Source: a virus
Reading direction: 5' to 3' (one strand)
IMG/VR virus record: IMGVR_UViG_3300006875_000032
Coordinates: 1-49,757 of that record
DNA: 49,757 nucleotides
The notes beneath the pieces are model-generated. The model saw nothing but the letters and a program-made list of their open reading frames with translations. It ran no database searches and was not told the DNA's origin. Positions 562 to 10,272 of the stretch are shown piece after piece (the first letter of the stretch is position 1; each line of letters starts with the position of its first letter). The translations under genes and the position numbers were made by a program.

Positions 562-1512
562 CTAGCTCCTTGGGTTCTGTGATTTCTGTTCAGCGTAACG
601 CTTGATCATGCTCATCCGTTTTTTGGGGTCGTCCCAAAAGCCGGCATCCTTCATGGCTTTAACCTGATCAGGGGTTAGCATGAAGGTTTGGCGTCCACCT
701 GCTGACGCTGCATTCTCACGGCCAGAACTTGTCACAGCACTCCTGGGTCTACGTCGAGGAGAATCATCCTCATAGTCGTCATTGTACTGATGCGGGATGT
801 ATTTCCGCAAGCGGTTGTCCATCTCGTCCCAATACTCTCGAGTTGCGGGATTCCAACCCTCAGCATTAAGCTGCTCATCGATCTGTTTAGCAATCTTGCT
901 ATCCATATCTTTGCGCTCAGGGTCGAACCATGGGTTGCGTTGCATCCAGTTAGCGATTTGCTTTTGAACGCTTGCATCGGGGATGTTTGCCTTTTGCTGT
1001 GGCTGAACTGCCTTTTGCTTGAAGTTCTTAAGAGCCTCAAGCTTTTGGCGCTCATCAAGCAGCATTTCATTGGCTTGGGCAGCGGCTTCGCCATCTTGTG
1101 CTTGCACAGCCTCAGCCAACTTCATCTTGGCATATCGCACACGAAGTTCGCCATCTTGCATAGCCTTGTCGATTTGTGCGAGATCGTTGGCGTGAGTGCG
1201 TTGCTCAACGACTGCTAAGCGCTCCATCAACTCTTGGTTTTGGCGCTGCAGCAATTGCAGGCGCTCATCCTTCTCGGCCTGTGTCTTGCGGACTAAGTCC
1301 TTCTTCGCACGCCTACGCTCGCGCCGGGCAGCCCGTAAGGAATCGAGTTCGTCAGCGTTAGGGGGATCATCATCGCCAGGAACATCGCTGCTTTCAGTCT
1401 TGTCGCTTTGGTCATCGTCCGCCGCAACTTGAACCGAATCAGGAAGTTCAACGGTGACCGAGCCATCCGCTTCCTCCTTGATCGGAATATTTTCTTCATG
1501 TTCGTTGCTCAT
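562..1512 (-). CDS. Probable capsid scaffolding protein
   Basis: 316 residues with the composition of a phage scaffold. An acidic, disordered N-terminus (residues about 1-55) leads into a long charged coiled coil (about 55-165, rich in Arg, Lys, Glu and Gln) and a polar C-terminal region with a basic patch DSPRRRPRS. There is no catalytic motif. It sits between the portal block and the presumed capsid gene, the usual place for scaffold. Its ATG overlaps the stop of the GroES-like gene by four bases, implying translational coupling. Scaffold families are recognised by composition and context rather than by conserved residues, so the call is an inference. Confidence 0.7.
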   Translation of the reverse strand: MSNEHEENIPIKEEADGSVTVELPDSVQVAADDDQSDKTESSDVPGDDDPPNADELDSLRAARRERRRAKKDLVRKTQAEKDERLQLLQRQNQELMERLAVVEQRTHANDLAQIDKAMQDGELRVRYAKMKLAEAVQAQDGEAAAQANEMLLDERQKLEALKNFKQKAVQPQQKANIPDASVQKQIANWMQRNPWFDPERKDMDSKIAKQIDEQLNAEGWNPATREYWDEMDNRLRKYIPHQYNDDYEDDSPRRRPRSAVTSSGRENAASAGGRQTFMLTPDQVKAMKDAGFWDDPKKRMSMIKRYAEQKSQNPRS

Positions 1513-1946
1513 AGGAAGGCTCGCGTCTCAAGGGGGTTGCCCGTGATCTTGGCAATAACCTCATGATCATTAACGATCATAAAGAGCGCCGGATCTTCGT
1601 TTTGGTCTTCGCCAGGCACCCTTACTTCCCAGCGATCGCCACCCCATTTGGGTACGCGGATAAAGTCACCGACCTTGCACCAAGAGCCTTCAGGCCACTG
1701 CTGCATCGTGTCACGGTGACAAAACGCAAGAGGTCCAACCTCGATAACCTTGGCCACCTGCGTATTCCACTTCTCTGTCTCTTTGGTTTCTTCAACCAAC
1801 AAAATACCCGCCTTAGTGGTTTTCTTCTTGGAGCGACGGATCTGTACCATCACACGACCACCAAGAGGTTTCGCACCAGGATCTACGCTCGGAAATGCCC
1901 AAGCCATCTCAGCTTCGTTAGAAGCTACTGGTTCATTCATCTTCAT
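1509..1946 (-). CDS. GroES-like co-chaperonin (Cpn10 fold)
   Basis: About 145 residues. The core follows GroES order: PLGGRVMVQI (first strand, compare PLHDRVIVKR), a basic loop then AGILLVEE in the place of the GroEL-binding mobile-loop tripeptide (compare GIVL), AKVIEVGPLA, a GSWCKVGDFIRVPKWGG turn, and ALFMIVNDHEVIAKI at the end. An N-terminal extension of about 25 residues and extra loops make it longer than bacterial GroES (about 97). It presumably caps host GroEL to fold a phage protein, most likely the capsid, as T4 gp31 does. Three in-frame ATGs lie within 12 bases; 1946 has the best-spaced AAGGA, and 1952 is possible. Confidence 0.8.
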   Translation of the reverse strand: MKMNEPVASNEAEMAWAFPSVDPGAKPLGGRVMVQIRRSKKKTTKAGILLVEETKETEKWNTQVAKVIEVGPLAFCHRDTMQQWPEGSWCKVGDFIRVPKWGGDRWEVRVPGEDQNEDPALFMIVNDHEVIAKITGNPLETRAFL

Positions 1947-2118
1947 CTTCATCCTTCAAAATTGATTCAATCATCCGGAGTGCTTCAGTCAGCCCCAGAT
2001 TGATTCCGACCGTGCGTTGATACGCCTCCCATGTCGCAGCATTGCCTGCTGCAAGAGAACCGCTTATTTCAGCTTGGCGCATCTTGATGTCACGGATTAA
2101 GTCCGCTATAGGGTTCAT
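1933..2118 (-). CDS. Small acidic helical protein, 61 aa
   Basis: Unrecognised. It is predicted mostly helical (LIRDIKMRQAEISGSLAAG, then LGLTEALRMIESIL) and ends in an acidic tail KDEDEDE. Its last codons contain the ATG cluster and AAGGA site used by the GroES-like gene, so the two are read in overlapping frames. Its own ATG overlaps the TGA of the 53-residue gene before it. The tight nesting on both sides and protein-like composition support a real gene. It may be a small virion or assembly factor, but nothing in the sequence says which. Confidence 0.65.
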   Translation of the reverse strand: MNPIADLIRDIKMRQAEISGSLAAGNAATWEAYQRTVGINLGLTEALRMIESILKDEDEDE

Positions 2119-2276
2119 TTTTTCTTAGTGGGCAGTGCGCCTCCTTTGGTCTTGGGTTGTTGGGTTTGGCCTTTAGACTGCAGGCTTGTGCCGTCAAGGT
2201 TTGCGCCCATGGCAATACGCTTGTGATAGGGCACGGCTTCTTGGTCTTTCAGGTTGTTACTGGATGGTTGGGCCAC
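2115..2276 (-). CDS. Small basic protein with GTG start, 53 aa
   Basis: A short gene beginning with GTG at 2276. AGGAG lies six bases upstream, inside the last codons of the portal gene, and the two genes overlap by 20 bases in different frames. The product runs from VAQPSSNNLKDQEAVPYHKR to a Lys/Gln/Gly-rich tail ending ALPTKKK. Its TGA overlaps the ATG of the next gene. The strong ribosome site and exact fit between neighbours are the evidence. Function unknown; a small DNA- or portal-associated peptide would suit the basic tail. Confidence 0.6.
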   Translation of the reverse strand: MAQPSSNNLKDQEAVPYHKRIAMGANLDGTSLQSKGQTQQPKTKGGALPTKKK

Positions 2277-4824
2277 GATTAGCTCCTAAGTTTCGTTGGG
2301 CTTCGTTTTGAAGCCGGATAGCAGTCTCATACTGCTCTGCCTGCAATTGCTCATCCTTCTGGGTGAGTTGTGCAGTTGCTATGCGCTCCTTGGTGAGGTT
2401 GTTTGTAGCGTTAAGCGCCACATCCAACTGATCACGCTGGGCTGCGCGTTGTTGGTCGCCCTGCAGTCGTGCCATGTCAATCTGGCCACGTTGCTGCATG
2501 TCGGCACCTTTGAGTTGCATCTCAGCCTGATCGCGCTGTGCGCGGCGCTGAGTCTCTGCCAGGCTGGTTTCCTTGAGCACTTGCGCTTCAGGCGGTAACT
2601 GAGGCTGTGGCGTAAGCTGCTGCATGGCCTGCATCAATTGCTGAAGCTTTGGCACGACTTGATTGAATGCGGCCTGGCTGTCTTGCATGACATGGCGTGA
2701 TGCAATGGCAAAGGTCTTGTCAATCTCTGCAGTCAGTTGCTTGTTCTCATAGTCGCTCTCGGCCATGGGTTCGCCACGAGCCTTGCTTAGGTAGCCATTC
2801 ATGCGGCCAAGATACCAAAGGACCATGTGCTGCTTGATGTGCTCAAGGACTCGAGGCAGATAGAACGATGCCATGATGGGGTTTTGGCCAAAGGCAGGGT
2901 CTAGTGCAAAGTCTAAGTGCGCTTGCAGGTGTGCTAACTGGTCTTGGTGCGGGTAAGCGTAAGCATTCTGACCTAATGCCATGGCTACGTTCTCATCAGC
3001 AGCCGTTCTTTCTTCAGGTGCCGGTGTACCTTTGAGCAATTCATTGATGCCAGGAATCTTTAGCTGCTTTAAGAGACGCTCTTCAACGGCGCGACGGTCA
3101 TAAAGGTCTGGTGCCTTGTCTGATCGTGCCAAGACTGCCTGAATCTGCGCCATGCGCTGCGTTTCAGAGAAGATGTGCGGGTCAGACACCGGCACAACGT
3201 CTCCCATGCGTGAAAAGTCGCCTGGCTGGACCTCAAGATCAACTACTTGCTCACCGCGGCGCATGTCTTGCATGTACCAGCGGTTAAGGCGCTGCAAAAT
3301 CTTCAGTACACGGCCTTGTGAGGCGTGTAAACGAGCGTGGATAGCAGAAAAGACAGCGGCACCCTGCTCAATCAGTGCTTGTGTGGTGCCTACAGGAGCC
3401 TGTGCCGTTATATCAGCGATCTTTTCTTCTGCCGTCGTCACAACACCCTTGGCAGCCTTGTCTAAGAAGCCTAAAAGCTCAAATAACACAGGGCTGGGTG
3501 GGTTAAACGGCATCGGCATCGCAATCTTGCGAATGTCATCAACGCCTGGCGCACCTTCAATCTCAACAACTTGCGTCACATCAGCCTGTACAGACTGGCC
3601 AGAGATCTTTGCGCCCTTCAGTTTGAGCGTTGCCGGCGCATTATTGATGTGAGCAGAGTCTAAAAGCGCCCGTAAGGAGCCTGTAAGGGCTGCTGCCAGG
3701 CCTCCAATGAGGTGCGGCATCCCGATAGCGTAAGCACCACGCCATGGAATGAACTTAAATTCGACGACCCAGTCCAATTTGGTCATCGTTTCATCGCCCT
3801 CTTCCCAGTTTCGGTACAAACCGACCACTTCACGGTCGATTTCATCAACCATCAGGATGTAGGGCGCCATTTCACCCTTGGCATAGCTGTCATCTTCAAG
3901 CTCAAGCCAGGTGTAAATGTGGAAAACACGGCGCATGCCGTCAATATTCTCGTCTGCCTTGCGGCCTTCGATCTTGTTGTTGGCCTTTTCTGGCCGTGTT
4001 GGCTCCGGCTCCATGGAAACGCGAGTCAGGCTGATGTCTCGATACAGGCCTGCAGCAATGCGTTGCTCAAATTCCCAGCCAGTAATGTCATGAATCTCTG
4101 CTGCACGTTGTGCGGTGTAGAAATTCGTTGCGGCAAAGGGGATCAAAACCTTATCAATGGGCAGAAATTCAGCCACCGGACGCAGTTTTTTGTCATCCCA
4201 GTACATCTTGAGGTACTGAGAGCCGCCCAAAGGCAGTTGCGTGAGCATTTGCTCTTGCTCATCGCGGAATTCTTCGATCTGCTCAGTAAGCTGCCAGTTC
4301 ATCCAGTCGCGCTTACGCTCAGCACGTTTGACTTTTTCCTCGTCATTCTCGCCAAGGATCTTGGTTTTGACTGGGCCATCAGGCGGGAAAAGCTCTTTAA
4401 TGGCACGGCTTGCAAAGTCCACACAGGCTTCTGCCATGACAGGGTGGACTACTTTGCTGGCACCAAAGAATGTAGCGCCACCAGGGGCGTCTTTGCCCAT
4501 ACCAGTGCGCTTTAATCCCTCTTCGTATTGCTTGTCACGGTCTTCTCGAGCCTGCTTATCCTTCTCTAGCAGGTCAAGATACTTAACAGCCATGCTGTCA
4601 AGCGTAAAGGGATCGATGACCTCAGCTAGGTTTTCATAAAAGTCTGGGTCTTCAAGTGGTCCCTTGGTGTCTTCCATGCGGACAACAGCAGAGCCATCAG
4701 GAAGTTCTTCGATTTCTGCATCTTCATCAGGTAACTCGGCTGACATATCAGCAACGGGCACCTCGTCATCGGCCATACCGCTAATGAAGCGGCCATAGTC
4801 CTGCTCAATAGGCATCTCAGGCAT
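2257..4824 (-). CDS. Portal protein, 855 aa
   Basis: A large protein downstream of the terminase genes. The N-terminus is acidic (about 60 residues). The core has the portal-like stretch GATFFGASKVVHPVMAEACV, aromatic-rich beta regions with FLPIDKVLIPF, and a helical stem/wing region around GVVTTAEEKIADITAQA. The C-terminal 150 residues are a Gln/Ala-rich coiled coil (QRRAQRDQAEMQLKGADMQQ). Length and layout fit the large portals of short-tailed phages that form the 12-fold DNA channel at one capsid vertex. I start it at the ATG at 4824, which has GAGG eight bases upstream and overlaps the previous stop by 8 bases, rather than at the upstream TTG at 4851. Confidence 0.85.
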   Translation of the reverse strand: MPEMPIEQDYGRFISGMADDEVPVADMSAELPDEDAEIEELPDGSAVVRMEDTKGPLEDPDFYENLAEVIDPFTLDSMAVKYLDLLEKDKQAREDRDKQYEEGLKRTGMGKDAPGGATFFGASKVVHPVMAEACVDFASRAIKELFPPDGPVKTKILGENDEEKVKRAERKRDWMNWQLTEQIEEFRDEQEQMLTQLPLGGSQYLKMYWDDKKLRPVAEFLPIDKVLIPFAATNFYTAQRAAEIHDITGWEFEQRIAAGLYRDISLTRVSMEPEPTRPEKANNKIEGRKADENIDGMRRVFHIYTWLELEDDSYAKGEMAPYILMVDEIDREVVGLYRNWEEGDETMTKLDWVVEFKFIPWRGAYAIGMPHLIGGLAAALTGSLRALLDSAHINNAPATLKLKGAKISGQSVQADVTQVVEIEGAPGVDDIRKIAMPMPFNPPSPVLFELLGFLDKAAKGVVTTAEEKIADITAQAPVGTTQALIEQGAAVFSAIHARLHASQGRVLKILQRLNRWYMQDMRRGEQVVDLEVQPGDFSRMGDVVPVSDPHIFSETQRMAQIQAVLARSDKAPDLYDRRAVEERLLKQLKIPGINELLKGTPAPEERTAADENVAMALGQNAYAYPHQDQLAHLQAHLDFALDPAFGQNPIMASFYLPRVLEHIKQHMVLWYLGRMNGYLSKARGEPMAESDYENKQLTAEIDKTFAIASRHVMQDSQAAFNQVVPKLQQLMQAMQQLTPQPQLPPEAQVLKETSLAETQRRAQRDQAEMQLKGADMQQRGQIDMARLQGDQQRAAQRDQLDVALNATNNLTKERIATAQLTQKDEQLQAEQYETAIRLQNEAQRNLGANRGPTIQ

Positions 4825-7800
4825 GTTCGTATCCTCGTTTAACGCTATCAAGCGCTGACTTCTTCACGGCGCCGCCCTTCTTTTTCTCGGTGCGGACATC
4901 AGGCAACGGTACTTTTTTGCTGTAGTAAGGCATCAAGACACCTTCGCCCGTTTCAATCATGTCGAGTAGGTAATTGCGCACATTGCGTGGCGTAGGTTTT
5001 ACACCCATGCCGTTAAGCGTGTAGGCAGCTTGGCGCTCAAGTAAATCTAATGCGTCACCGCGGGGCGATACTAACCCGGTTAATTCGCCACCGCCAAACC
5101 AGCGGCCAGCTTGTGCCGTACCGCCAGGCAGGCCCAGGCTTTTAGCGATGTCCAGCATTTGCTGTTCTGCAGCGCCATATTCAGTTGAGCCAAATCCACC
5201 CTGCTTACTGAAATAGGGGTGAAAGCGACTTGCTTGCGTTTCGCCCGACGCCTCATGCACATCAAGCACCACTGACTTGCCAAAGTCTCCAGCTTTTTGT
5301 GTGCCGTAAGTTGGGATTTTGTAATTAACTGGTATGTCTGCTTTTGACATCTCGCGCAGGTCAAGATTTCCTTCAAGAACATTTCTCACGCCTTCACGAT
5401 GCACGGGCATCAATGGCAGACCAGTGCCGTATTTTTGCTTAAATGCTTCCATCTCGCGCTTGACGGTTTCCTCATCAAGGGGCAGGCCTCGAGCATTCAT
5501 GTCGCGTAGGAATTGGCCAACTGCCATTTCATTTAGGATGGAGTTACGCGCCGACGCCGGAGCAGTGCTGTAGATAAACTGATTAAACTTTTCCTCGGGT
5601 ATGCCGCGCTCAAGTGCCGCCATCTTCATGGGATAAAGCGAAGCGTAAAAAGTTTCACCACCCAGGGGCAACCCGCGCTTAATCTGCGCCTCAATGAGTG
5701 CTCGATTACGCGGGTCCTGGTAAATCTCTTCGATGTAACCAATGTTGGCCCTTGGGGGCGAGTAGCGCGGGAATGCCGTTTGTTCAATACCAGGAAAGCC
5801 TTCCATGGCATCTTTGATGAGCGATCTATCAAATGCTTGTAGCTCAGCACGCGGCGGCTGCCAAGGCTCGGTAGGTTGAGCGAGGAATTCTTCGGCCTTT
5901 TGGGCGCGTCGTTCAACAACCTCGGGCACATTTTGCAAGCGATCGCCTATTGATGCGGAGGCGGGTGCATCAATCAATTTGCCAAATTTCTTTTCAATGG
6001 CTGGTTTTTGCTGCTTCGTCCAAGTGAGGTTTTTCTCGGCGATTGCAGCGGCACGCTTTTGCACATCTTCAGGCGCCATCTTGGGATCTTCTTTGGCGAT
6101 GGCTTTGGCTACCTTGTTGGCTTCGCTTCTTAGCTCACGCGCTGTAAAGGCTGCTGCTTTAGATGCTTTGGCAATCTTCTCAAGCTTACCGCCGCCAGCC
6201 ATGCGCACAGCACCGCCCATGGCTAACTCAAGCGCCATGGTGTCAAGGTTGTCAGATATATGAATTCGCCTCATGGGACCACCCTGCTTATAAGGTGTTA
6301 CTGGCACTTTGCCAAACATCACGGCGCTCGGCTTGGTTGACTGTGGATTGATGTAACCGGCATATCCATAGTCGCGGATTAATCGCTCAAGCGCATTGGT
6401 TGCTTCAGTGGGCTGCGCCAATCCTTTGTTAGAGCTTGCCGTCATCGGGATGCGCGTCGTCTCTCTGGCCAACATGTTGAGCATGAGAGGATCAGCCGTC
6501 AGGTCATAAAGATTTTCACCCATGGCACGATAACGATGTGGTCCTAAGCCAGGCTCGGGTGTTACGCTTTCATCGGTGTAAAAGTAAGTCCTGGGTCTGA
6601 CCGAGCCAGTGCCAGCCAGTCGTGCGGCCTCTTCACCTTTGATGCCCGTGCCATAGAACGCCGGATCTGTTTCAGTCAAGCCTGCCTGCTTGCTGAAATG
6701 CATCATGGGCATGTTGACAAAGGTGCCCTCCTCGGGCTTGATCAGTCCTCGCAAGTAATCAGGCATCTCGCCTTCGTACTTTGTGCTTAAAAACTCGGGT
6801 GGCAAAAGCACTGGCTTTTGTGGGGCAAACTGAAAGCCATTCCATGCTTCTTTCAACTGCGAATCAATCTCTTTGACTAATTCAGTTTTGCCGCGACGAT
6901 TGGCTTCGTAGCGTTGCATGTTCAGTTCGTTGATGGTGCGCTTGAGTGCAGCATTCAGTGGGGTGTAGTTGACCGTGCTGTTTTGGCCTCGTGTCTCAGT
7001 GCTCATGGCCAAGCGTGCAAGGGGCGAGTACATCTGACTGTGGGCTGCCCAAGCAGTCTCCTCGCCCTTGGGGCCAAACTCGTTGCCATGCACCGCGTGA
7101 CCAAAGAAGTCATGCACAGCACGGAACTTTTCGTTTTCATTCAATCCGGTTTCAGGATCAACTGTCTTTAAGTAGGGGTGCTCATCACCGCCCTGGAAGA
7201 CGTACAGGTGCTTGTTGCCGTATACATCCTGCAGCATTTGCTTGCTGTTGCGGTAGTTGCCCTCGCCTGCTCGGTGATACGAAAGGCTTATGGGCAGACG
7301 CTTGAACTGCTCGTCAGTCTCTTTGGCTAATTGCTTGTAAGACGCAGCCAGCAATTCATCGTAGTTCTTGGCGCCCGATTCTTTAACGACGTCAGGCATT
7401 TGCCTGGCGTATTCATTGAAGATGGTTTGTTTGTATGTCGGGTCTTCAGTGGTCGCAAGCATGAAGGCGCGGCCAATGGGCGCTTGCTTGAAGATGGAGC
7501 TTTCAGAAATCTCTGGCAGTTCGTAAGGCCTGCCGAAGGCCTCTTGCACATAAGTGTCTGCTGACTGACGAACAAAGTTCGCCGGGTCAGCCATTACTTG
7601 CTGTACTGCTTCATTCGTAATTGGTTGCGGAACATCGCTTCCAGTTCCTCCTGCGGGACGCTGTCCGGCTTGAGTCCCATCGCTTTCGAGCGTGCCTCGA
7701 CGCTGGCCTGCAGGCGCTTGAGAGACGCTAGGACGGACGCGGTAGAACGGTCCTTCTGTGGCTGTTTCATATGTCACTCCTTGGACAGGGATTGTCGCAG

Positions 7801-8353
7801 CCTTTGGTGCTGAGACTTCAGGAATATTTGCTTTTGTTGTTGTTTTTGCCACACCTTTAATTGCTCCCACTGCGCCAGGCATGGCTGCGGGAGTCCACAT
7901 CTGGGGCAAGATAGGTGGCAGCTTAGACTCGCGTATAAAGCGCTCTAAGCCCTCGGCGGCGCTCTCAAGGTACTCAGGGCCAAGCTCAGTCTGCATGGGC
8001 CTCATATCGCCTGTAATGAACTCCTGAGAGGCTTCTAAGGCGCGTTGCAATGGGCTTGTGTCTGAAGGGTCGCCACTCTTGATTGCTTCTTTGATGAAGG
8101 TACCAGCAGTGACGGCAGGTGATACCAAAGTGCGGCCAACAATTGGCAGGCCCGTAAGCGCTGCATCAATACCGCCAGCAAGAGGCTTGGACACTGACTC
8201 GATGTCTTGCAGAATGTTGCCTTGGCCATAGCCCGGCAATGAGGACACACCGCGCTTTGGCGTTTTGCCCATGAAGCGATTGAGGGGGCTTCCACCGTCT
8301 TGCATTGGAACGCCGTACAAGGTTTCAAGCAGCTTCTTGGGATTGGGCATCAT
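4817..8353 (-). CDS. Large multi-domain phage protein (polyvalent-type), 1178 aa
   Basis: The start is one of two tandem ATGs (8353/8350), just downstream of GGAGG. Visible segments: a small/hydrophobic region near residues 60-120; around residue 415 a conserved FRAVHDFFGHAVHGNEFG with a GEETAWAAH partner; around residue 550 MPMMHFSKQAGLTETDP with FYGTG, which resembles the ADP-ribosyltransferase-like segments of phage polyvalent proteins; and a C-terminal block (about 910-1150) with FNQFIYSTAPASARNSILNE and KPTPRNVRNYLLDMIETGEG. Such proteins are thought to be packaged and act early in the host. The domain names are from memory and tentative. The position between terminase and portal supports a virion-associated role. 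Confidence 0.65.
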   Translation of the reverse strand: MMPNPKKLLETLYGVPMQDGGSPLNRFMGKTPKRGVSSLPGYGQGNILQDIESVSKPLAGGIDAALTGLPIVGRTLVSPAVTAGTFIKEAIKSGDPSDTSPLQRALEASQEFITGDMRPMQTELGPEYLESAAEGLERFIRESKLPPILPQMWTPAAMPGAVGAIKGVAKTTTKANIPEVSAPKAATIPVQGVTYETATEGPFYRVRPSVSQAPAGQRRGTLESDGTQAGQRPAGGTGSDVPQPITNEAVQQVMADPANFVRQSADTYVQEAFGRPYELPEISESSIFKQAPIGRAFMLATTEDPTYKQTIFNEYARQMPDVVKESGAKNYDELLAASYKQLAKETDEQFKRLPISLSYHRAGEGNYRNSKQMLQDVYGNKHLYVFQGGDEHPYLKTVDPETGLNENEKFRAVHDFFGHAVHGNEFGPKGEETAWAAHSQMYSPLARLAMSTETRGQNSTVNYTPLNAALKRTINELNMQRYEANRRGKTELVKEIDSQLKEAWNGFQFAPQKPVLLPPEFLSTKYEGEMPDYLRGLIKPEEGTFVNMPMMHFSKQAGLTETDPAFYGTGIKGEEAARLAGTGSVRPRTYFYTDESVTPEPGLGPHRYRAMGENLYDLTADPLMLNMLARETTRIPMTASSNKGLAQPTEATNALERLIRDYGYAGYINPQSTKPSAVMFGKVPVTPYKQGGPMRRIHISDNLDTMALELAMGGAVRMAGGGKLEKIAKASKAAAFTARELRSEANKVAKAIAKEDPKMAPEDVQKRAAAIAEKNLTWTKQQKPAIEKKFGKLIDAPASASIGDRLQNVPEVVERRAQKAEEFLAQPTEPWQPPRAELQAFDRSLIKDAMEGFPGIEQTAFPRYSPPRANIGYIEEIYQDPRNRALIEAQIKRGLPLGGETFYASLYPMKMAALERGIPEEKFNQFIYSTAPASARNSILNEMAVGQFLRDMNARGLPLDEETVKREMEAFKQKYGTGLPLMPVHREGVRNVLEGNLDLREMSKADIPVNYKIPTYGTQKAGDFGKSVVLDVHEASGETQASRFHPYFSKQGGFGSTEYGAAEQQMLDIAKSLGLPGGTAQAGRWFGGGELTGLVSPRGDALDLLERQAAYTLNGMGVKPTPRNVRNYLLDMIETGEGVLMPYYSKKVPLPDVRTEKKKGGAVKKSALDSVKRGYEHA

Positions 8354-8389
8354 CGGCCTCCGTTTGCGCGGGATGATAACCAGTAGGGC

Positions 8390-8418
8390 TTGCAAAGTCT
8401 ATCTGGACTCACTATCAT
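8390..8418 (+). promoter_or_regulatory. sigma70-like promoter for the 8423-8568 RNA
   Basis: TTGCAA (8390-8395) and TATCAT (8413-8418) are separated by exactly 17 bases, matching the consensus at 4 of 6 and 5 of 6 positions. It points rightward, opposite to both flanking late genes, and lies just before the first helix of the structured region. The start of transcription would be near 8424-8426. Confidence 0.55.
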
Positions 8419-8422
8419 CGCG

Positions 8423-8568
8423 CTGTCGGTGTGGCAGCCGGCAGTGCTGAGTACAACCCCAGAGTATTTAGGTGGGGCTTGTGTGGTCACAATGTCTTAC
8501 TCAGCAGACTGCGTGATTGCCCAACGCCAAAGGGCCTTGCCCCTCCTAAGTGTTCTGGGGTTTTTCTT
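8423..8568 (+). ncRNA. Candidate structured small RNA with pseudoknot
   Basis: No convincing protein is encoded here, but the plus strand folds very well. P0: 8423-8429 pairs with 8438-8444 (7 bp). P1: 8457-8472 pairs with 8545-8560, 16 continuous base pairs including three G-U, then a U-U mismatch and five G-C pairs (8474-8478 with 8539-8543). Inside are P2 (8485-8490 with 8513-8518, then 8494-8497 with 8506-8509) and P3 (8519-8522 with 8532-8535), making a three-way junction. The whole 8-base loop of P2 (8498-8505) is complementary to 8446-8453, a pseudoknot. P1 is followed by TTTTTCTTT like an intrinsic terminator. The G-U pairs become A-C mismatches on the other strand, which sets the direction. 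Confidence 0.6.
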
Positions 8569-8569
8569 T
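8457..8569 (+). terminator. Terminator-like end of the small RNA
   Basis: The closing helix of the RNA ends in CCCCAGA/TCTGGGG and is followed directly by TTTTTCTTT (8561-8569) on the plus strand. No such T run follows on the minus strand, so late leftward transcripts should pass. The enclosed distance is long (about 70 bases within the helix), unlike a simple hairpin terminator, so efficiency is uncertain. Confidence 0.4.
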
Positions 8570-8606
8570 GGTGCCGACCGTACTGTCCGCGATAGCAATG
8601 GGCTAC

Positions 8607-8778
8607 CCAGCCGCTGACAAGAACAGGGTACTGGTAAGGCGTTTCGACCCGGTGCAAATCCGTAAGAATCCAGCGGCTGGCAGAACCTCCAGGCCGAGGG
8701 GTCAGGCAACTGACATGGAGGTGGCGTTTATCGCCCGAGGAATCCCTGCTCACCACCCCTGTGGGGGTAGGGGGGCAG
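8607..8778 (+). other. Second structured non-coding block
   Basis: The rest of the gap before the terminase stop is also rich in helices. 8607-8616 pairs perfectly with 8671-8680 (10 bp). Inside it 8628-8634 pairs with 8649-8655 (7 bp, two U-G). 8685-8691 pairs with 8716-8722 (7 bp) and encloses a 5-bp hairpin 8701-8705/8710-8714 capped by a GCAA tetraloop. 8723-8726 pairs with 8732-8735, and 8755-8759 with 8764-8768. The G-U pairs and the GNRA loop occur only on the plus strand. I see no clear promoter of its own. It could be a separate RNA, part of a longer read-through RNA, or a DNA site used in packaging. Confidence 0.4.
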
Positions 8779-8805
8779 TTTCGAGGAATTATCCTTAAGC
8801 CTTCA

Positions 8806-10272
8806 TTACGACGCATACGGATTCTCTTTGACGACACCAGCATCGATGAGGTCTTCAGGGTCGTAATCATCAGGCGGTAGCGGGTCGATGTTGAGCCAGC
8901 TTGCATCTCTTAGGTATCTGAGTGCTTGCGAGAACGCGTCGCAGAAGTCATCGTGGTCGGTATTTGGGAAGCTGCAGATCTGCGTGACCATGGCCTCAGC
9001 CCAGTCTCTTACGTAACCCGATCGATTGCTGGACTCAGGCACATACACCCTTCCAGCCTTCACGATGTTAGCCACGATGCTCAGGCGTTGGATCTTGTCA
9101 GCCCTGCCTGGGTTGTAGGCCCTCACCGGGATGTGAGCACGCTGCAGGTCCTGGATCAGCACGATGCCCGCGGCCTTGTCCTCAACGAGCACGAGGTCAA
9201 CCTTCTTGGCGGTCTTGCCTTCACCGAAGATGATCTCGAACTCGTCAATGACCTTGGGCTTGAGATCGGGGTATTGGAGTCTGTCCTGCCAGGCGTCGAT
9301 GATCAGGACGCACATGCCACCGTCCTGGGGCTTGAAGACACCGAAGGTAATCGATGCGGTAGGATCGTTGACCGTCTTCTCAGTGAAGGCGCAGTCATAG
9401 CTTTGGACCACATACTCGAGCTTGGGCAGTTCTTTGCCGGCAGGCCAAAGCTTGAACCAATCCCGTTGGACAATACCCCCTTCCTCAGGGTCGATGATCT
9501 CAGCGTATATCTCCTGGCGGCCAAGCTTGGTACCTTCGTACTGCAGGATCTGGCGCTTGAAGTTCTCAGACAGGTTATCTAGGTTTGAGTAAGTGCTTGC
9601 AGTGGTAAGCACCACATCATCACCCTCGCGGCTGATCAGGTCGATGATCAGGTCCTTAGGCTTGGGTGTGGTTGTGCAGATCAGCCTGGTCTTCATGTCG
9701 GGCAGCTTCAAGCGCATACCAAACTGGATCTGGTCCCAGGCTTCCTGGATGTACTCCCACGCGGCTAACTCATCGAGCCAACCGCCGTGGAACTGCGGAC
9801 CGCGGAAGCGCTCAGGTTCACTGGCGGGAATGCCTTTGATCAGACTTCCGTTAATAAGCTTGATCTCATGCAAGGCCTTGTTGTAATCAGTGATCAGGAC
9901 CGCAGGAATCACGCTCAGAAGGCCTGAATCACCCTCGAAGCATGTACCCCTTACGTCACTGCTTGTTGGGGCCGCTACGAGCCATCTGGTGGCTTTGTAG
10001 GACTGTGCCCACCAGCCAATCTGCTCGGCTGCAGTCCTGGTCTTGCCGGCACCGCGGCCTGCTAACAGTAACCAGATCGACCACCAATCACCATGGGGCA
10101 AGATCTGGTGCTTGAGTGCTCGTGTGAGCCACATCATGCGCCAGGCCCAAGCAGCAGCCGCCTGTGGCTCTAGCCTGGTGTACTGCTCGCGGATCTGTGG
10201 ATCTTTGAGCAGGGCCTCGAGGTCACTTGTCCCCAAGCTGTCTCTTAGCCTCGAGGTTCTTGAGCATCGCAT
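8806..10272 (-). CDS. terL: Terminase large subunit (packaging ATPase and nuclease)
   Basis: Motor that pumps DNA into the prohead through the portal and cuts it. N-terminal ATPase: Walker A LLAGRGAGKT near residue 69, Walker B with catalytic acid GGWLDELAAW near 168, and coupling motif ICTTTPKP near 200. C-terminal RNase H-fold nuclease: acidic residues in QSYDCAF (about 292), VLVEDKAAG (about 365) and DHDDFCDAFSQAL (about 440). The 488-residue length is normal. The reading frame overlaps the small subunit gene by 50 bases and no good ribosome site precedes the ATG at 10272; a TTG at 10236 is an alternative start. Confidence 0.95.
   Translation of the reverse strand: MRCSRTSRLRDSLGTSDLEALLKDPQIREQYTRLEPQAAAAWAWRMMWLTRALKHQILPHGDWWSIWLLLAGRGAGKTRTAAEQIGWWAQSYKATRWLVAAPTSSDVRGTCFEGDSGLLSVIPAVLITDYNKALHEIKLINGSLIKGIPASEPERFRGPQFHGGWLDELAAWEYIQEAWDQIQFGMRLKLPDMKTRLICTTTPKPKDLIIDLISREGDDVVLTTASTYSNLDNLSENFKRQILQYEGTKLGRQEIYAEIIDPEEGGIVQRDWFKLWPAGKELPKLEYVVQSYDCAFTEKTVNDPTASITFGVFKPQDGGMCVLIIDAWQDRLQYPDLKPKVIDEFEIIFGEGKTAKKVDLVLVEDKAAGIVLIQDLQRAHIPVRAYNPGRADKIQRLSIVANIVKAGRVYVPESSNRSGYVRDWAEAMVTQICSFPNTDHDDFCDAFSQALRYLRDASWLNIDPLPPDDYDPEDLIDAGVVKENPYAS

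Follow-up and report, generated by a model that had tools for sequence, protein, structure and literature searches.

The analysed stretch of DNA, a phage record of 49,757 bp referred to here as the window, has a 410-base gap between the gene for the terminase large subunit (terL) and the next late gene, and the question is what this gap encodes. A sequence-only reading had seen in positions 8423-8568 a pseudoknotted plus-strand RNA with its own promoter and terminator, had not recognised its class, and had considered either a likeness to the phi29 packaging RNA, for which it saw no evidence in the sequence, or a leader-antisense regulator of late genes. The RNA is on the plus strand, antisense to both flanking genes (Table 1). 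The ORF list lets the large late gene begin with a TTG; an ATG near 8351, preceded by GGAGG, is probably its true start. A GroES-like co-chaperonin gene (phrog_3188; 1509-1952, minus strand) was observed downstream of the portal gene, within the late region. The analyses described below indicate that the gap almost certainly holds an RNA gene built as a unit of two modules.

Anatomy of the unit

The promoter boxes, the closing helix pairing 8457-8472 with 8545-8560, its G-C extension, the complement of the 8-base loop and the T run were all found where the sequence-only reading had placed them. The preference for the plus strand was also borne out: the plus-strand fold of 8423-8568 had an energy of -67.9 kcal/mol (z -5.5), which none of 200 shuffled sequences reached, vs -52.6 (z -2.8) for the minus strand. 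A further fold z-score for the window RNA was -4.9. When long stems anchored on a U-run were scanned, the window RNA scored 40 and the next best stem in the window 27, while the best scores in eight Markov-simulated windows were 21-32. The extent of the element had to be revised. The 8423-8568 region is only the 5′ module, RNA1 (about 145 nt), of a unit extending to about 8790, which includes a second structured domain, RNA2 (about 215 nt). Alignment of relatives in both orientations showed a shared layout of promoter, hairpin H1, long hairpin H2 and U-tract, which make up RNA1, followed by RNA2.

Table 1. Coordinates of the RNA1-RNA2 unit and of neighbouring genes in the window.
Feature	Position	Strand	Basis
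-35 box TTGCAA	8390..8395	+	sequence
-10 box TATCAT, 17-nt spacer	8413..8418	+	sequence
RNA1 5′ hairpin H1 (GTCGG/CCGGC)	8425..8442	+	98.2% of cells paired in relatives
Pseudoknot 5′ strand GCTGAGTA	8446..8453	+	pairs with 8498-8505
Long hairpin H2	8455..8562	+	98.8-100% of cells paired; folding
H2 closing helix	8455-8472/8545-8562	+	
H2 closing-helix extension GGGGC/GCCCC	8474-8478/8539-8543	+	
H2 inner helices	8483-8490/8513-8520 and 8494-8497/8506-8509	+	
Pseudoknot 3′ strand TACTCAGC, in loop closed by GTCT/AGAC	8498..8505	+	full complement of 8446-8453
U-tract TTTTTCTTT, directly 3′ of closing helix, intrinsic-terminator-like	8561..8569	+	sequence
RNA2 type B, second structured domain	8574..8790 (ends approximate)	+	relatives, covariation
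RNA2 core pseudoknot	8674..8722	+	alignment of 19 sequences
PC	8674-8677/8693-8696	+	100% of cells paired, 19 sequences
PD	8685-8691/8716-8722	+	100% of cells paired; 4/7 pairs altered on both sides
PE hairpin, within RNA2 core	8701-8704/8711-8714	+	
RNA2 hairpin	8723-8726/8732-8735	+	97.4% of cells paired; 3/4 pairs altered on both sides
RNA2 hairpin	8755-8759/8764-8768	+	92.6% of cells paired
Portal gene	2257-4851	-	ORF listing, PHROGs
Next late gene (large), antisense to the RNA	4817..8395	-	ORF listing, PHROGs
terL	8806..10272	-	ORF listing, PHROGs

The promoter-like sequence is not peculiar to the window. The -35 and -10 boxes matched at 8/12 or better in 82% of 62 RNA1 clusters vs 16% in shuffles, these calls being sequence matches and not mapped starts. 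In 33 of the 62 clusters, within the common RNA1 class, the -10 box begins exactly 18 nt upstream of the pseudoknot strand. With this fixed spacing the start falls at the foot of H1, and in the window transcription is predicted to begin at about 8425. At the other end of RNA1, the GC-rich stem is followed directly by a U-tract (8455-8569), an arrangement resembling an intrinsic terminator. The same arrangement was present in 89/89 distinct RNA1 modules, although a TTTT or longer run after the stem was a requirement of that search; the typical run is 5-7 T.

Covariation and the selected strand

The sequence-only reading had regarded relatives without compensatory changes, or with a conserved protein frame, as arguments against an RNA. 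Compensatory changes were looked for and were present in the RNA1 helices and in the pseudoknot. An alignment of 11 window-type RNA1 sequences had 95.3% of cells paired and 13 pairs altered on both sides, and its covariation score of 0.202 vs 0.110 was reached by 0/500 shuffles and far exceeded that of slid versions. Among relatives, one pair of H1 has switched from G-C to A-U. The variable pseudoknot columns are imperfectly aligned in this set; therefore, permutation of partners across 63 clusters is the better test of the pseudoknot. Summed over the clusters, the best pairing of the 5′ segment with the H2 interior came to 1255, compared to 871 ± 20 (sd) for permuted partners (0/2000). Relatives have swapped the strands for unrelated yet mutually complementary pairs, as seen within the window class: GCTGAGTA/TACTCAGC in the window, TGTCAGGA/TCCTGACA in L040, TGAACGA/TCGTTCA in L109, GAGCGAA/TTCGCTC in L219 and TCAGGAAG/CTTCCTGA in L220. 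Exchange is also visible between near-identical copies. Three sites in total distinguish L049 from L172, and two of them form a single compensated pseudoknot pair; L199 and L204 show two compensated pseudoknot pairs.

The helices of the aligned relatives contain 96 G-U cells vs 2 A-C cells, which identifies the plus strand as the one under selection. A protein-coding gene was rejected. Relatives in the RNA1 alignment are offset by gaps of 1 and 2 nt, which argues against a conserved protein frame, and no such frame was found; covariation and orientation fit an RNA.

In the window class (RNA1-B), the kissing strands are about four times as variable as the remainder (0.44 vs 0.11). This fits an element of self-recognition, for instance in homo-oligomers, and it also fits plain compensatory drift; since the excess among close pairs of all classes is only 1.5-fold, drift may be all that it reflects. 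The fixed scaffold with exchangeable complementary strands could also suit a device for superinfection or incompatibility, with free RNA1 kissing the RNA1 that is being transcribed from an identical phage and so altering readthrough, but the unit has no repressor-like cargo and we consider such a device highly improbable.

The second module and its variants

In the alignment of 19 sequences of the type B RNA2 core, 96.4% of cells were paired and the covariation score was 0.387 vs 0.137 (0/500). By inspection, RNA2 of types A, B and C and the Betaproteobacteria-1 RNA share one core order, in which a helix encloses a second strand in its loop before it is closed, and a small hairpin then precedes the partner of that second strand; this topology is backed by statistics for type B only.

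Several variants of the 3′ part of the unit were observed. In L322 (plus strand, 3364) RNA2 has no core, and its 5′ hairpin leads straight into the CCACCCTTGGGG end, while in L270 (minus strand, 493) the RNA2 5′ hairpin is present as a tandem pair. The linker between RNA1 and RNA2 in L143 and L146 (about 1660-1847 in the latter) contains a large tRNA-like fold with a T-arm and an acceptor-like helix, in which ARAGORN called no tRNA gene. Other hairpins are inserted in this linker in L115, L244 and L310. In the reverse complement of L111 (1455-2284), a type A RNA2 without RNA1 follows an HNH-endonuclease-like ORF that is itself behind a TerL-like ORF.

Distribution, linkage and orientation

The terL site was examined in 80 loci encoding terL relatives. 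In 49 of them, with terL 62-98% identical, just 2-11 nt separate terL from a conserved motif that precedes the next gene, and the site is thus empty; the element is dispensable there. Moreover, the window's hairpin type occurs in six to seven loci of other phages, in an early-type region after a small non-packaging gene and attached to a different 3′ domain (97% hairpin identity in the first three such loci). The idea of a phi29-like packaging RNA had drawn on the adjoining terL, and the several hairpins and complementary loops agree with it. The empty sites and the copies far from packaging genes speak against it, as does the lack of an Rfam match, and we hold a packaging role to be extremely unlikely.

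A second suggestion, antisense regulation of the late operon by the RNA, matches the orientation of the window unit between terL and the next late gene. Some relatives at the terL site are antisense like that of the window, but 13 have a related element in sense, among them L003, L005, L025-L027 and L045-L047; in sense-oriented copies an overlap of the -35 box TTGACA with the terL stop codon is possible. The use of one site in both orientations disfavours a conserved antisense role, and elsewhere, in other phages, the element occupies other sites in mixed orientations. An antisense regulator is therefore very unlikely.

Relatives are present on hundreds of mostly unclassified viral contigs, at many sites and in both orientations, as expected from a widespread optional RNA module rather than from a part of the packaging machine. 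Pattern scans of viral contigs found domain A on 62 contigs, domain C on 50 and domain B on 26. Scans based on RNA2 yielded 89 distinct RNA1 modules, and an independent scan for the RNA1 stem gave at least 120 stretches corresponding to at least 113 distinct RNA1. As all these scans use exact patterns, they undercount the members. A scan of genome contigs with the domain A pattern returned two matches, by estimate at chance level. Plain nucleotide searches of GenBank phages found no relatives except two weak matches, and both are members, located in the complete Manatee Spring phages MW202484.1 and MW202753.1. They have the promoter-like sequence, H1, matched pseudoknot strands, the U-tract and RNA2. 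Their RNA1-RNA2 regions are annotated as hypothetical proteins (UOF77725.1 at 2525-2884 of L330, from MW202484.1; UOF81610.1 at 2347-2778 of L331, from MW202753.1), which, given the overlap with the units, are probably not proteins.

The attachment of the window's hairpin type to a different 3′ domain shows that hairpin and 3′-domain types recombine, the combinations found being hairpin B with domain A, hairpin C with domain A and hairpin B with domain C. Such recombination would be expected if the two modules were separate elements, RNA1 being a small RNA that is terminated and RNA2 one that settles downstream of terminators or genes. The U-tract that follows RNA1 everywhere points in the same direction, as do the copies of RNA2 without RNA1 behind the HNH gene of L111 and downstream of an ORF in L120. 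Nonetheless, RNA2 lies behind virtually every RNA1 among the matches listed. In the RNA1-only scan, motif classes placed RNA2 behind 95 of 109 untruncated RNA1 among these matches; the remaining 14, read individually, had RNA2 or a remnant in all except one or two (L298 resembles a chance match and L269 a remnant). The modules are thus almost obligately linked, and independence of the two is rather unlikely.

The possibility that the unit is a cis-acting leader, with RNA1 as an attenuator and RNA2 as a riboswitch-like or ribosome-recruiting 5′ region for the gene behind it, was weighed against the ends of RNA2 and the neighbouring genes. A U-tract separates the modules, type A RNA2 frequently terminates with GGGGAAGYTATGYCTAAA, and type B terminates with TTTCGAGGAA followed by ATG. 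Among 136 placed copies, 65 are co-directional with both neighbours and 25 appear antisense to both, an approximate count since orientation was judged by the lengths of open frames. The gene for the major head protein (phrog_3437) is behind the unit in 17 loci, such as L114, L121, L123, L125, L131 and L134. However, the genes downstream are unrelated (major head protein, replication initiation protein, HNH endonuclease and unknowns), and the unit has no constant position before a regulated gene. The ORF behind type A RNA2 has two codons in L090 (ATGTCTTAA) and lacks an ATG in L046, and no ORF was found behind the unit in the window or in several relatives. A leader is unlikely. The absence of an ORF behind the window unit and the 25 copies antisense to both neighbours favour a stand-alone, trans-acting RNA.

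Proposed mode of action

We propose that the unit is an autonomous, optional, trans-acting non-coding phage RNA gene of two modules, of the general GOLLD/ROOL type, a reading to which we give about an even chance. Host sigma-70 RNA polymerase would initiate near 8425, and RNA1 would fold into H1 and the long hairpin H2, with the 5′ strand pairing into the H2 interior to form the pseudoknot. Many polymerases would probably halt at the U-tract, and readthrough would add RNA2 with its own core pseudoknot. The product would then function as a folded RNA, not in packaging, as an antisense RNA or as the leader of an mRNA; action in trans is, on balance, probable. Its likeliest mode, suggested tentatively and at a confidence well below even, would be RNA-RNA self-recognition by the variable, self-complementary kissing strands, giving homo-oligomers as in GOLLD/ROOL. 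Two observations pull against the proposal: a single long RNA is hard to square with a strong terminator placed between its two modules, and the many copies of RNA2 that end at a Shine-Dalgarno sequence and ATG would fit a leader. A bolder version of the proposal, speculative and unlikely, sees the unit as a widespread mobile phage RNA module whose exchangeable kissing strands are a self/non-self code, so that like RNAs assemble and those of rivals do not; RNA2 would be the effector domain, and Betaproteobacteria-1 one of its branches.

Comparison with known RNA families

A literature search found no description of such an RNA1-RNA2 cassette, and Rfam searches of the window gave no match for RNA1 or RNA2 at the gathering threshold or at E values up to 10. 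Two relatives, however, do contain a known family, Betaproteobacteria-1 (RF02932), in the RNA2 slot directly behind RNA1: L289 at 5600-5717 (86.8 bits) and L315 at 2483-2599 (93.4 bits), with a gathering cut-off of 49.4. Apart from unrelated int-alpA and tRNA hits, this was the only family matched in the first and divergent RNA2 types. One int-alpA RNA (RF02996, 40.6 bits, cut-off 35.8) was observed in L039, a relative of the window phage, at 1131-1202 on the plus strand, just upstream of an HNH/AP2-endonuclease-like gene; it is unrelated to the terL-site element.

Other structured RNAs were considered and set aside. The order of strands in RNA2 is like that of a group I intron core (P3-P7-P3′-P8-P7′), which was rejected because RNA2 interrupts no exon and has no P4-P6 between these strands. 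An HDV-like ribozyme, suggested by the same topology and a GCGAA-like joining strand, was set aside for lack of P3 and of an Rfam match. Type III toxin-antitoxin RNA antitoxins are pseudoknotted RNAs with a promoter and a terminator, sometimes followed by a gene. The unit resembles them in these respects but has neither tandem repeats nor a constant toxin gene; the type III antitoxin, HEARO/omega RNA and retrons were dropped because there are no repeats, nuclease or reverse transcriptase. The phi29 packaging RNA is likewise a phage RNA with complementary loops, and here a packaging gene is nearby, but the RNA described in this work is dispensable, occupies many sites and has no tie to packaging.

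The Betaproteobacteria-1 RNA reportedly comes from a 2017 paper. By inspection, its last hairpin hides the same core topology (PC5′-PD5′-PC3′-PE-PD3′). However, RNA1 and the pseudoknot are both absent from the Rfam model, which spans 120 positions, and the window RNA2 is below the family threshold. If the relationship is real, this family, in Rfam only an sRNA, gains a transcription unit, a partner module and a pseudoknot core.

With GOLLD and ROOL, the unit shares the character of a large, ornate, structured RNA carried by phages. In GOLLD the 3′ region is universally conserved and the 5′ region less so, and some members have a tRNA in the linker (PMC12286853). The two-module layout with a variable 5′ module recalls this, although here both modules come in several types, and the tRNA-like linker fold of L143 and L146, in which ARAGORN called no tRNA gene, may be a further likeness. 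Nonetheless, the unit is about half the size and has a U-tract between its modules, and the GOLLD covariance model had no match in the window or in about 37 relative loci. If the interpretation is correct, the RNA1-RNA2 units are a class of structured phage RNAs with more than 100 distinct members in one viral collection, which were missed or annotated as hypothetical proteins, and their many natural compensated variants provide material for testing what phage RNAs of the GOLLD/ROOL type do.
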